Below are positions 3,451 to 12,400 of a DNA stretch of 35,438 nt, piece by piece; the first letter of the stretch is position 1; every line of letters starts with the position of its first letter. Source of the DNA: Deltaproteobacteria bacterium (GTDB lineage: Bacteria > Myxococcota > SpSt-1050 > JACRCP01); NCBI GenBank assembly GCA_016218965.1, contig JACRCP010000251.1, positions 1 through 35,438 on the forward strand, read 5' to 3'. A model generated the notes under the pieces. The model searched no databases. It worked only from the letters and a program-made list of their open reading frames with translations, and was not told where the DNA came from. A program made the translations under genes and the position numbers.

Positions 3451-6400
3451 AGCCTCTCCGCCGCAGTGCAATGGCGATTCCCAGGACCGCAAGCAGGAAC
3501 CCGGCGGCGCCTGCCGCGGGATTCCGGTTTTCGATGTTCGATGGTCCATCGTCCGCCAATCCCAGATCCCAAATCCCAAATCCCAAATCGCCTCCCGCCT
3601 CGATCGATACCGAGGAGCACTGGCACCCGCCGCCGGCGGCCTCACCCACAATCTTGTTCTCGGCCTTACCCCGACCCGAATCAACGGCCGGCGCCCCGTC
3701 GCCCGTCGCCCCCGCGTCTGTCCCGATGTCTGTCTCCGCGTCTTGCGACGCGTCGTCCGCCGTCTCCGCGTCTTTCCCTGCATCTGCCCCCGCGTCTGCG
3801 CCGGCGTCCGTCTCCGCGTCAGTTGTTCCTGTGTCCTCTGTCCCCGCGTCCTCGCCGGCCTCCTCCCCGCCGTCGACCCCGGCGTCCGGCGAGGTCGCGC
3901 ACCCATCGAGCCCATTGTCAGCGAGGCCGTCGCAGTCGTTGTCGAGGTTGTCGCATATCTCGGCGATGGGTCCCACCTGTCCCAGGCACTCGCTCATGGT
4001 CCCGCCCAGGCAGGTCGCCACGCCCTTCCGGCACTCGCCCATGTCGCTCCCGCACTCGACCGTGATGTCCTCGTCGACCTGCCCGTCGCAATCGTTGTCG
4101 AGGCCGTCGCAGGCCTCGGGAACCCCTTTCTTTTCGCCGAGGCACGGGCCCAACGCGCCGTTGCTGCACGCGCTGATGCCGCCCGAGCACTCGCCCACGT
4201 CCGTGCCGCAAAGCGTGAAGAGTTCCTCGTCCACGGCGCCGTCGCAGTCGTTGTCGAGCCCGTCGCACTTCTCGGGGTCCCACTTCACCTCGCCGGTGCA
4301 CGCGCCCCAGCGCCCGCCCGAGCAGGTCTGCGTGCCCTTTTTGCACTCGCCGACGTCACTGCCGCACCACTGCGTGTCGCCGTCGTTGCACGAGCACCCT
4401 TCGTCGATCTGGCCATTGCAGTCGTTGTCAACCCCGTCTCCGCACGCCTCGGTCACGGGTTTGACCTCGCCCAGGCACTCGCCCCAGACGCCGTTTGCGC
4501 ACGTCTGCGAGCCGGCCACGCACGCGCCCTCGTCGGTGCCGCACGCGCGGACGAGGTACTCGTCGACGATCCCGTCGCAGTCGTTGTCGATCCCGTCACA
4601 GACCTCGGCCGACGGCCCAACCTCGTTCTGGCAATCCGAGTAGACGCCGTTTGCGCACTCGCGGAACCCCTGCCGGCAGGCGCCGACCCCGGAACCGCAC
4701 GGGACGCGGATGTTCTCGTCGGCCTCGCCGTCGCAATCGTTGTCCTTTCCGTCGCACAACTCGGGCACCGAGCGGATCTCACCCATGCAAAGGCCCCAGA
4801 TGCCGCCGGAGCACACCTGGATCCCCAGCACGCACTCGCCCGTGCTCGACCCGCAGAGCTGCGTCTCGCCGTCCTTGCACGAACAGCCCTCGTCGATCTC
4901 CCCGTCGCAGTCGTTGTCCTGTCCGTCGCAGATCTCGGGACTGGGGGCGATTTCGCCGACACAGGCGCCCCATTGGCCGAAGTAGCAGTTGCGGAGTCCG
5001 GTGCGGCAGGTCCCGAGGCTCGATCCGCAGACGACGGTGATCTCCTCGTCAACCAGACCGTCGCAGTCGTTGTCGACGCCGTCGCAGGTTTCCGCGGACG
5101 GGCCCGTCATCCCTTCGCACGATCCCCAGCCTCCGGCCGTGCACGCGGAGATCCCCTGCCTGCACGCGCCCACCGCGGACCCGCACGCCACCTGAAGGCT
5201 CTCGTCGGTCTCGCCGTCGCAGTCGTTGTCGAGGCCGTCGCACATCTCGGGCGCCGGTCCCGTCTTGCCGGCACACCCCCCCCACTGCCCTCCGGTGCAC
5301 GTCTGGGTCCCGGCGGTGCATTCGCCCTGGTTGCTCCCGCACGCCCGCGTTTCGCCCTCGACGTTGCAGGCGCAGCCGCCGTCGACGTTGTCGACGACGG
5401 CGTCGCAATCGTTGTCAAGACCGTCGCACGTCTCGGCCGCAGGACCCATCTCGCCGTCGCACGCGCCCCACGTCCCGCTCATGCAGCTCTGGGTGCCGCG
5501 GCGGCACTCGCCCTCGTCGGAGCCGCACGACCGGTTGAGGTACTCGTCGGTCATGCCGTCACAATCGTTGTCCTTCCCGTCGCACGTCTCGGCCGCAGGC
5601 CCGATTGAACCCGCGCACGCGGTGAACGACCCGTTGACGCAGTACTGCGTCCCCTTCTTGCACTCGCCCGTCTCGGTCCCGCACTCGCGGCTGATGTCCT
5701 CGTCGTTCTGCCCATCGCAGTCGTTGTCGAGACCGTCGCACAGCTCCGGCGCCGGATCGACCTTGCCCACGCAGCCCGTCCAGACGCCGCCTTCGCAGGT
5801 CGAGAACCCCTTGCGGCAGACGCCCAGTGCGTAGTCGCCGCACTCCTGCGTCAATCCCTCATCGGTCTGGCCATCGCAGTCGTTGTCGAGGTTGTCGCAT
5901 ATCTCGGGCTGCGGGCCGACCGCGCCGTCGCAGGTCCCCCACGCGCCGCCGGTGCACGTCTGCGCCCCAGGCACGCAGGTGCCGATCGAGAGCCCGCACG
6001 AGCGGACCTCGCCCGGCGTGCAGTCGCAACCCTCGTCCACGGTCCCGTCGCAGTCGTTGTCCTGAGCGTCGCAGACCTCGGCCTGCGGCATGATCCCGCC
6101 ATCGCAGTTCCCCCACTGTCCCGCCGAACAGACCTGCACGCCTTCGCGACAAATCCCGACGTTTTTGGAGCACGCCCTCGCCAGCGCCTCATCAACCTGT
6201 CCGTCGCAGTCGTTGTCTATCCCGTCGCACACCTCGGTCTCGGGCTCGACGGCACCCTGGCATGCACCCCAGTTTCCGGCCGAACAGTACTGGTAGCCGT
6301 GGCGGCAGGCCCCCACGTCCTTGCCGCACGGACGGGCCTGCTCCTCGTCGGTGTTCCCGTCGCAGTCGTTGTCGAGGTTGTCGCATATCTCGTCCTGGGG

Positions 6401-9400: not shown

Positions 9401-12400
9401 GCATGTCTCGGCGGAGGGTTGGACCTCACCCACGCACGCGCCCCAGTTTCCGCCGGCGCACGTCTGGAGACCCTGCTGGCACTCGCCGACGTCCGAGCCA
9501 CAGACGCGGCTCAGGCCCTCGTCATCCGCGCCGTCGCAGTCGTCGTCGAGGCCGTTGCAGATCTCCGAGCGCGGCCCAACGCCGCCGACGCACGCGCTCC
9601 ACATTCCGTCGGTGCACGTCTGCACGCCAACCTGGCACTCGCCGACATCGGTCCCGCAGTTTTGAGTGATGTTTTCGTCTATCTGGCCGTCGCAGTCGTC
9701 GTCGATGTTGTTGCACACCTCGCTCACCGGCTCGATGTTCCCCTGGCAGGGGCCCCACGCGCCGGCCGTGCACGCCTGCGTACCGTACCGGCAGGCGCCC
9801 GTGCCGCTCGACCCGCACTGCCGCGAGAGGTTCTCGTCGGTGAGCCCGTCGCAGTTATTGTCGAGGTTGTCGCAGACCTCGGGTTGCGGCCCCGTGGCGC
9901 CCGCGCAGGCGCCCCAGGCGCCACCCGCGCACGTCTGTGTCCCCGCCACGCACTCCCCGACGTCGGAGCCGCACGAGCGCGTCTGGCCGTCGATGCAGGC
10001 GCAGCCCTCGTCGGTCGTGCCATCGCAATTGTTGTCTTTCCCGTCACAGACCTCAGGCTGCGGGAACACCCCGCCGACACACGAACCCCACGACCCCGAC
10101 CCGCACGTCTGCACGCCCTCGCGGCATTCGCCGACGTTGCTCGAGCAGGTGCGCGTGAGACCCTCGTCGGTCTGACCGTCGCAGTCGTTGTCGAGATTGT
10201 CGCAGATCTCGGGCCCCGGGCCGATGCCACCCGTGCATGCGCCCCACACCCCCGCCGCGCACGTCTCGACGCCGAACTCGCAGGTGCCCGTGTCGTCTCC
10301 GCAGTTCCTGGTGAGATCCTCGTCGGTGAGACCGTCGCAGTCGTTGTCCTTGTTGTCGCAGACCTCGGGGACCGGGTTCACCGCCCCCTGACAGGTGCCC
10401 CACTGCCCGTCGACGCACGTCTGGGTGCCCAAGCTGCACTCGCCGGTGTCCAGGCCGCAGTTGCGGACCTGGCCGTTTATGCACGAGCACCCCTCGTCGA
10501 CCGCCCCGTCGCAGTCGTTGTCGAGACCGTCGCAGATCTCGGCGGCGGGACCGATCTCACCCGTGCACTCCGGGGCGTAGGTGCCCCCGACGCAATACCG
10601 AACACCGGCGCGGCATTCCCCGACGTCCGAGCCGCACGGGATCGAGAGGAGCCCCCCGGCGTCGGCCTCGTCTGTGGTCCCGTCGCAGTCGTTGTCGACG
10701 CCGTCGCAGATCTCGGGTTGGGGATCGATCTTCCCGAAACACTCAACGCTCCAGTGGTTGTCGATGCAGAGCTTCTGTCCCGGACGGCAGGCGCCCACCG
10801 ATGAGCCGGGACACTGAAGCGTGTCACCGTTGACGCACTCGACGTTGTCGGACGCGTCGAGCCAGTTTGGAATGCCGTCGTCGTCGATGTCCGTCGTCAG
10901 TTCGAAGACGTCCGGGGCGCCGTCGTTGTCGGCGTCGAACTCCCTGAAGTTGGGGATGCCATCGCCGTCCGCGTCGGGGTAGAGCGGCGCGCACGTGACC
11001 GGACCGGCGGTGCAGACCGCAGGGTCGTAGACGTACTCGACGGTATCCGAGATCGTGTCGTTGTCCGAATCAAGGTCGCGGAAATCGGGCGTCCCGTCGC
11101 CGTCCGTGTCGGCCGGGGCCTGGCCGGGCGCGGGCCGGCCATACTCCACCGAGTCCGGGACCTGATCGTTGTCCGAATCGGCATCGTTCCAGTCGGGGAT
11201 TCCGTCGCCGTCGGTGTTCGCCACGTCGTACGGATCGCACGCGGTGTAGTTCTTGCAGACCTCGAAGAAATCCCCGATCCCGTCGCCGTCGGTGTCGGCG
11301 TCGTTCGGGTCCGTCCCGATCGCCGCCTCGACGCCGTTCCTCAAGCCGTCGCCGTCCGAGTCGCCGTCCGGGCCGTCGTTCTCGTTCACGTCGAGGTAGT
11401 TCGGGAAGCCGTCGCCGTCGGTGTCACCCGTCCCTTCCATCTGGTCGGGCTTGCCGTCGCCGTCCGAGTCCGAGTCGATGTAGTTGGGGAAGGGGTCGGC
11501 GTCGCAATTCCCGACCGGGTTGCCGCCGCACTGGCCCACCGCGGCTGACGCCTCGATGGTGTCGCTGATGCCGTCGTTGTCCGAGTCGGTGTCGCGGTAG
11601 TCCGGTTGCCCGTCGCCGTCGGTGTTGCGGGGCGGGAAGTTCCATTGTCCCGCGACAAGCCCGCTCTCCTCGCTGTCGGGGATGCCGTCGTTGTCGCTGT
11701 CGGCGTCCGCGACATCGGCAATCCCGTCGACATCGGTGTGGATCGGCCGGAAGGCATTGGGGTCGGTGGTGTAGTCGCACGGGCCGCTAGTCGGGCAGAT
11801 CTCGAACCGGTCGCCGATCAAGTCGCCGTCGGTGTCGGGATTGTTGGGATTCGAGCATGCCGCCGCGTTGGGTGCGCTGCACCAGCAGATGCACGCCTCG
11901 CCGGGCGTCGCGCACACGACGGTGAGAACGCCCCCGACGCAGGTCGCAGACGTGCGTGCGCCGTTCGGGATCCCGTCGCCGTCCGCGTCCGCCGCGGGGC
12001 CGTCCGAGTCGTTGGAATCCTTGAAGTTGGGAATGCCGTCGCCATCCGCGTCGCCGGTGCCTTCGATCGAATCGGCTTTGCCGTCCCCGTCGCTGTCCCA
12101 GTCGAGGTAGTTCGCGACCGTGTCGCCGTCCGTGTCCACCGCTCCCTCGATCGCGTCCGGTATCCCGTCGTTGTCGCTGTCGGAATCGCGGTAGTCGGGA
12201 ATCCCGTCGCCGTCGGAATCCCTCGGCGGAATGGACCACTGGGAAACGCCCCCCTCGACCGAGTCGGGTATCCCGTCGCCGTCGCTGTCCGAATCGAGAC
12301 AGTCCGGAGTCGCGTCCGTATCGGTGTCGATTGGAACGCCGGGCTGGCAGGCCCCTGCAAGACCGGGGCAGACCTCGTACCGGTCGCCGATCCCGTCGCC

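Follow-up and report, generated by a model that had tools for sequence, protein, structure and literature searches.

Block-wise duplication of twelve cysteine-rich modules in a giant putative envelope protein of a Myxococcota bacterium

How does a bacterial protein come to carry dozens of cysteine-rich modules whose order recurs every twelve modules, with length held while sequence has drifted? This question is raised by contig JACRCP010000251.1 of a Deltaproteobacteria bacterium (assembly GCA_016218965.1; GTDB lineage Myxococcota, SpSt-1050, JACRCP01), of which positions 1 to 35,438 of the forward strand were analysed (the window). A single minus-strand open reading frame (ORF; 2045-15985) of 4,646 amino acids (aa) contains the whole repeat feature and all twelve GCxC motifs that serve as its anchors. 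The array is interpreted here, with a probability of about 70%, as the block-duplicated, disulfide-stiffened and probably Ca2+-binding stalk of a giant envelope protein that also carries an internal sorting tag and a beta-barrel.

The array consists of 41 complete MopE-type cysteine (Cys) modules of 52-62 aa each, with half a module at each end. The protein matches the PF11617 profile (Cu-binding_MopE) with 532.6 bits over 33 stretches, above the curated cut-off of 27 bits. Each module contains six or eight Cys, and 38 of the 41 have a DxDxDG-type loop. Module lengths run 58, 58, 52, 52, 58, 53, 52, 52, 58, 52, 58 and 59 aa in modules 1-12, recur as an identical series in modules 13-24, and are 58, 59, 52, 52, 58, 53, 52, 52, 62, 52, 52 and 58 aa in modules 25-36 and 52, 52, 59, 52 and 52 aa in modules 37-41. 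The parts of the array are as follows.

10709..10837, minus strand: half module 0, the C-terminal half of a module (aa 1717-1759)
8723..10708, minus strand: block A, modules 1-12, 662 aa
6737..8722, minus strand: block B, modules 13-24, 662 aa, with 70.4% identity to A and no insertion or deletion (indel)
4757..6736, minus strand: block C, modules 25-36, 660 aa, whose orthologue in two related genomes (G001 and G002) is the second block
3893..4756, minus strand: tail modules 37-41 and half module 42, with no recognisable block copy

The first-pass annotation had described an exact 1,986-base-pair (bp) repeat of twelve modules, traced through GCxC motifs whose positions all proved correct. Their codons lie at 10490, 10004, 9359 and 8855 in the first copy, at 8504, 8018, 7373 and 6869 in the second, and at 6518, 6029, 5375 and 4886 in the third. 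All eight steps are as claimed (1986 bp four times, then 1986, 1989, 1998 and 1983 bp), and the 3-4-3-2 grouping of the motifs is kept in all three copies (modules 2, 5, 9 and 12; 14, 17, 21 and 24; 26, 29, 33 and 36); after the third copy the grouping changes to 3. The word 'exact' holds for the first two copies, of 662 aa each and aligned without a gap, and not for the third, of 660 aa. A self-alignment with no preference for the twelve-module offset had been named as the observation that would speak against the repeat; instead, self-offsets of 662 aa and 1986 bp score highest, ahead of the one-module offset, and 1325 aa (two blocks) takes third place. Scores at offset 12 average 203, compared with 193 for the best offset in 5,000 shuffles of module order (p<2e-4). 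At this offset, module identity averages 61% across the array and 70% between modules 1-12 and 13-24, while offset 24 gives 55% and other module offsets about 50%. Within the protein, half module 0 is most like modules 12 and 24, which fits an array that begins in the same register; the same half-module register is not clear in G001.

Judged from its sequence, block C is an older third copy, 58% identical to A and to B. Its twelve-module register has z=4.8 overall, with sequences of this genome and its relatives grouped, and p=2.4e-4 with permutation confined to modules of the same length class. The likeness is clear at positions 1-8 and weak, barely above background, at positions 9-12.

Is the block order peculiar to this genome? 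The array is present in 3/3 genomes of the order that the analysis covered (this one, G001 and G002). In G001, which belongs to a sister family, the ortholog is a 3,715-residue ORF with 30 modules in the same order, arranged as 12+12+6 as against 12+12+12+6 = 42 here (last half module counted), and its blocks measure 662 and 660 aa. The first G001 block is 68% identical to both A and B, and the second is 65.5% identical to C, with 660 aa each and no indel. The G002 contig starts within the first block and is colinear with the present array from there on. A tree joins C to the second blocks of the relatives, and A and B to their first blocks (100/100 each), which places the first twelve-module duplication before the split from these relatives; the later change was of exactly one block in one lineage. 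The earlier claim that whole twelve-module blocks were duplicated is therefore borne out by A and B, by C, and by orthologous blocks in two relatives, with a block number that differs by one between genomes. A scan of the genome collection for orthologs found only G001, with which there is no conserved synteny beyond repeat cross-hits.

In the tree, A, B and the first block of the relatives form a trichotomy. A tentative possibility, compatible with the stalk interpretation, is that the A/B duplication is ancestral and that G001 lost one block through a crossover between A and B, which would have left a hybrid block. The G001 block is indeed A-like in modules 1-7 and B-like in modules 8-12 (38:25 versus 20:37 sites, shuffle p=0.036). 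However, this p-value is weak, the quartet site counts are equal (12/15/15), and trees of the two halves place A and B together for modules 1-7 and A with the relatives' first blocks (X/Z) for modules 8-12, neither with strong support.

How old are the blocks, and what has kept their length? At four-fold sites where A and B encode the same amino acid, the third base is shared at 80/176, close to the base-composition level; silent sites are thus near saturation, and the A and B blocks are old. The rate of amino-acid-changing substitution (dN) between them is 0.23, and its ratio to the silent rate (dN/dS), 0.25, points to purifying selection only roughly, given that dS is near saturation and skewed by guanine-cytosine (GC) content. 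Silent sites are saturated in comparison with G001, in which coding GC is 45% as against 68% here. Length has nevertheless been kept while sequence diverged, as the first-pass annotation had noted, and this is seen in A and B, in C and in the orthologous blocks of the two relatives. Indels number zero between A and B, zero between C and the second G001 block (Y) and zero in the tail, with two single-residue events between A and the first G001 block (X). The array thus has 0-0.3 indels per 100 residues, compared with 38 events in the N-terminal and TSP3 region (3.0 per 100 aligned) and with 5.1 per 100 across the linker and tag. Tail modules outside the blocks are equally length-strict, which indicates that the length lock acts at the module level; block length is strict because each of the twelve positions keeps its own length, set by fixed Cys spacing. 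The array is a clear bacterial case of an ordered multi-module super-repeat that has stayed in register despite near-complete silent-site divergence and this difference in GC content.

The constancy of length had been taken as a hint that the block forms a structural unit, for example a superhelical turn. A block that serves as a structural or binding quantum, either as such a turn or as a ruler matched to a partner as in titin, with selection on block length itself, is unlikely. Consistent with it are the nearly constant block lengths here and in G001, a copy number that differs by a whole block, the first G001 block, where one residue gained in module 5 is balanced by one lost in module 12, and the conservation of block position 9, the highest of all (mean 78%). 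However, the module-level lock, as strict in tail modules that belong to no block, suffices to explain the constancy, and the third copy falls 2 aa short and carries four length changes within the block. The AlphaFold2 model of a twelve-module block (6-row alignment) reached a predicted local distance difference test score (pLDDT) of 73 and a predicted template modelling score (pTM) of 0.22, with no defined twelve-module shape. A model of four modules (23-row alignment) is confident, with pLDDT 91 and pTM 0.55, and displays short strands, no helix and one pattern per module. The models thus lend no support to a superhelical turn, although alignments this shallow make for a weak test. It is similarly doubtful that stalk length changes only by whole twelve-module steps, with a block that fits a fixed period, for instance that of a bundle repeat, of a partner or of the twist of a rod. 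Were a block quantum of this kind real, it would be a bacterial counterpart of the titin super-repeats.

Amplification of single modules, with the twelve-module periodicity due to chance or to gene conversion that continues between A and B, is very improbable. All modules are about 50% alike, which places single-module duplication further back in time, and the mutual, off-register similarity of modules 12, 24 and 26 points to some local exchange. Nevertheless, twelve successive modules of A and B stand in one register (z=8.1), and recent conversion between these blocks was rejected given the near-saturated silent sites and a longest exact run of 30 bp. The same 30-bp maximum at the 1986-bp offset led to the rejection of an assembly artefact. 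Module 26 (6386-6562) is closer to modules 12 (8723-8899) and 24 (6737-6913) than to its register partners 2 and 14, an exchange that the block model does not explain.

What might such an array do? The Cys number per module is even, as expected of disulfides, and the conserved aspartate (Asp) loop is of the Ca type. Approximately 41 such modules would form a disulfide-stiffened, probably Ca2+-loaded rod, which would hold the TSP3 region and the N-terminal domain away from the cell. The family name in Pfam and the abundance of Asp and Cys could instead suggest an array for the storage or scavenging of metal, namely copper, and not a mechanical stalk. This role is quite improbable, given that the Pfam text itself uses the word 'putative', that the loop and the Cys number are of the kinds just described, and that no copper genes were noticed in the neighbourhood.

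The array grew by tandem duplication of twelve-module runs, most simply when similar modules that lie far apart recombined unequally. One old duplication produced an A/B-type block and block C, and another produced A and B, while purifying selection on the framework of Cys and Ca loops would have held the length of each module and, with it, that of the block. Adjacent modules average 51% identity, with none above 60%, whereas A/B counterparts reach 81%; block-wise growth therefore lengthens the stalk without placing near-identical Cys-rich modules side by side. In large multidomain proteins, neighbouring domains are usually less than 50% identical, a divergence for which a role in limiting misfolding has been proposed (PMC8201768). 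Avoidance of identical neighbours may likewise be why blocks were kept, and offers a testable reason for block-wise growth.

The remainder of the protein bears on how such a stalk might be exported and anchored, and is laid out as follows.

15884..15985, minus strand: predicted signal peptide, aa 1-34 (...VAIVPFRAHA-QF), recognised by eye
14039..15883, minus strand: N-terminal domain of unknown fold, aa 35-649, without a Pfam match
10838..14038, minus strand: TSP3 (DxDxDG) repeat region of Ca-binding type, aa 650-1716, with a PF18884 match
12815..13561, minus strand: copy 1 of a repeat with a 185-aa period in the TSP3 region, aa 809-1057
12260..13006, minus strand: copy 2 of the same repeat, aa 994-1242, overlapping copy 1
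3635..3892, minus strand: linker rich in Asp, Ala, Gly and Thr
3392..3634, minus strand: internal sorting-tag-like segment, aa 4118-4198 (GGGCQC, hydrophobic helix, RRR, and a second signal-peptide-like helix ending in SAQ)
2540..3391, minus strand: outer-membrane beta-barrel domain, aa 4199-4482 (PF13557, E=2e-5)
2048..2539, minus strand: C-terminal domain of unknown family, in the place of a peptidoglycan-binding OmpA domain in G001 and G002

The two copies in the TSP3 region (period 185 aa, 555 bp) are 76.7% identical in amino acids and 75.5% in nucleotides, with homology over approximately 2.3 periods. Block-wise duplication thus appears to have shaped both repeat regions of the 4,646-aa protein. 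No OmpA domain was matched in it by Pfam; in G001 the domain matches PF00691 (E=1.6e-22), and in G002 it is visible by eye.

The tag reads as GGGCQC, a hydrophobic stretch and a basic run (RRR, KKSRR and KRWR in the three genomes). This is the tripartite layout of MYXO-CTERM (Cys motif, hydrophobic helix, basic stretch), to which the tag belongs by layout and not by profile. Neither this genome nor G001 has an ATG, GTG or TTG codon from the first tag helix through the basic loop into the second helix, which makes a barrel translated within the same chain the simplest reading. The tag and the second helix ahead of the barrel suggest a likely polyprotein cut twice. Export would probably proceed via Sec, with the internal MYXO-CTERM-like helix holding the chain in the inner membrane. 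A myxosortase-like cut at the tag helix would leave the stalk anchored at the surface, and a signal peptidase cut at the second helix would free the barrel as its outer-membrane partner. A 35-bp interspersed repeat (3558-3592) has been inserted within the tag, in frame, where it reads ...DLGFGIWDLG...; it has about 28 further matches in the genome and is absent from G001 and G002.

The closest known layout is that of MXAN_5598 of M. xanthus, termed atypical, which combines an adhesin, an internal MYXO-CTERM, a barrel and OmpA domains, like TraA and TraB in one (PMC11980579). Proteins of this type share with the present one a large surface region, an internal Cys tag with helix and basic stretch, a second helix and an outer-membrane barrel in one ORF. 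The present protein differs in its long PF11617 array with a twelve-module super-repeat, its lack of a recognisable OmpA domain and a tag without a TIGR03901 match. TraA and TraB of Myxococcus xanthus likewise combine tandem repeats rich in Cys, for which the role of a rigid stalk has been proposed, with MYXO-CTERM and a partner bearing an OmpA-like domain (PMC3325183). However, they are encoded by two overlapping genes, with a PA14 head and TIGR04201 repeats in TraA, while the present protein is one ORF with a different Cys module; neither PA14 nor TIGR04201 was matched in it by Pfam and NCBIfam scans. Titin A-band super-repeats are also ordered multi-domain blocks copied as units, in which domains at the same position are closer than neighbours (PMC10665226), but they consist of Ig and FnIII domains in eukaryotic muscle and have a thick-filament partner, whereas the present array has no known partner. 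The periscope proteins SasG, Rib and Sgo_0707 similarly alter stalk length through repeat number on the bacterial surface (PMC8201768). Their repeats are near-identical and vary fast, whereas the copies here are 58-70% identical, share no exact run longer than 30 bp, and differ in number (42 versus 30 modules) by one twelve-module step between families, not strains. Other MopE-motif proteins (PF11617) share the module core CDGxDNDCDGxxDE, and those read in this genome have 1-8 modules by the strict pattern, without such a super-repeat. The protein thus combines known kinds, namely a MopE-motif stalk, a layout of MXAN_5598 type and titin-like super-repeat organisation, and what is new is this combination as a variant.

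One further MopE-motif protein, encoded on another contig of the genome (ORF ~6492-11999), has an internal GCAC tag, a helix and a basic stretch, and its ORF continues with a lipoprotein-like signal and PKD-like repeats.

The join of tag, helix, basic loop, second helix and barrel within one ORF occurs in the 3/3 genomes of the order covered here and in giant ORFs across the phylum. A tag-barrel profile matched 108/195 phylum genomes, in proteins of ~650 aa and in giant ORFs of up to 3,786 aa outside the order, and a similar join was present in most of the 17 barrel-bearing loci fetched. In these loci (longest ORFs 1,116-3,786 aa) the MopE array was found in 0/17. The tag-barrel architecture therefore appears common in the phylum and the MopE super-repeat particular to this order, in this sample. 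The recurrence of a similar join in giant ORFs of 1,800-3,800 aa throughout the phylum makes a configuration called rare for MXAN_5598 look common, and extends the architecture of internal MYXO-CTERM and barrel to many giant proteins.

Several observations weigh against the stalk interpretation. Sequence, profile and fold searches returned no convincing solved relative of the module, and we thus infer the rod shape. The TIGR03901 (MYXO-CTERM) profile, with a cut-off of 20 bits, did not match the tag even at E<=1; it was passed at four other loci of this genome and at none in G001 or G002. A MrtX-like CPBP protein is encoded in all three genomes (152, 78 and 69 bits with NF040593), in each case below the cut-off of 180 bits. 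The array is known from three genomes only, one of them with an incomplete array (G002), and the trees do not distinguish a gain of one A/B block in this lineage from a loss in G001.

Neighbouring genes encode ABC-transporter permeases and ceramidase-like, GH5 and PPDK-like proteins, among others. No match to ftsA or ftsZ was found among the nine neighbouring proteins scanned, unlike the situation at MXAN_5598, and a plasmid search with the barrel gave no match. Near the window end, an ORF on the minus strand (34397-35407) encodes a phage tail collar domain (PF07484, E=1e-17).

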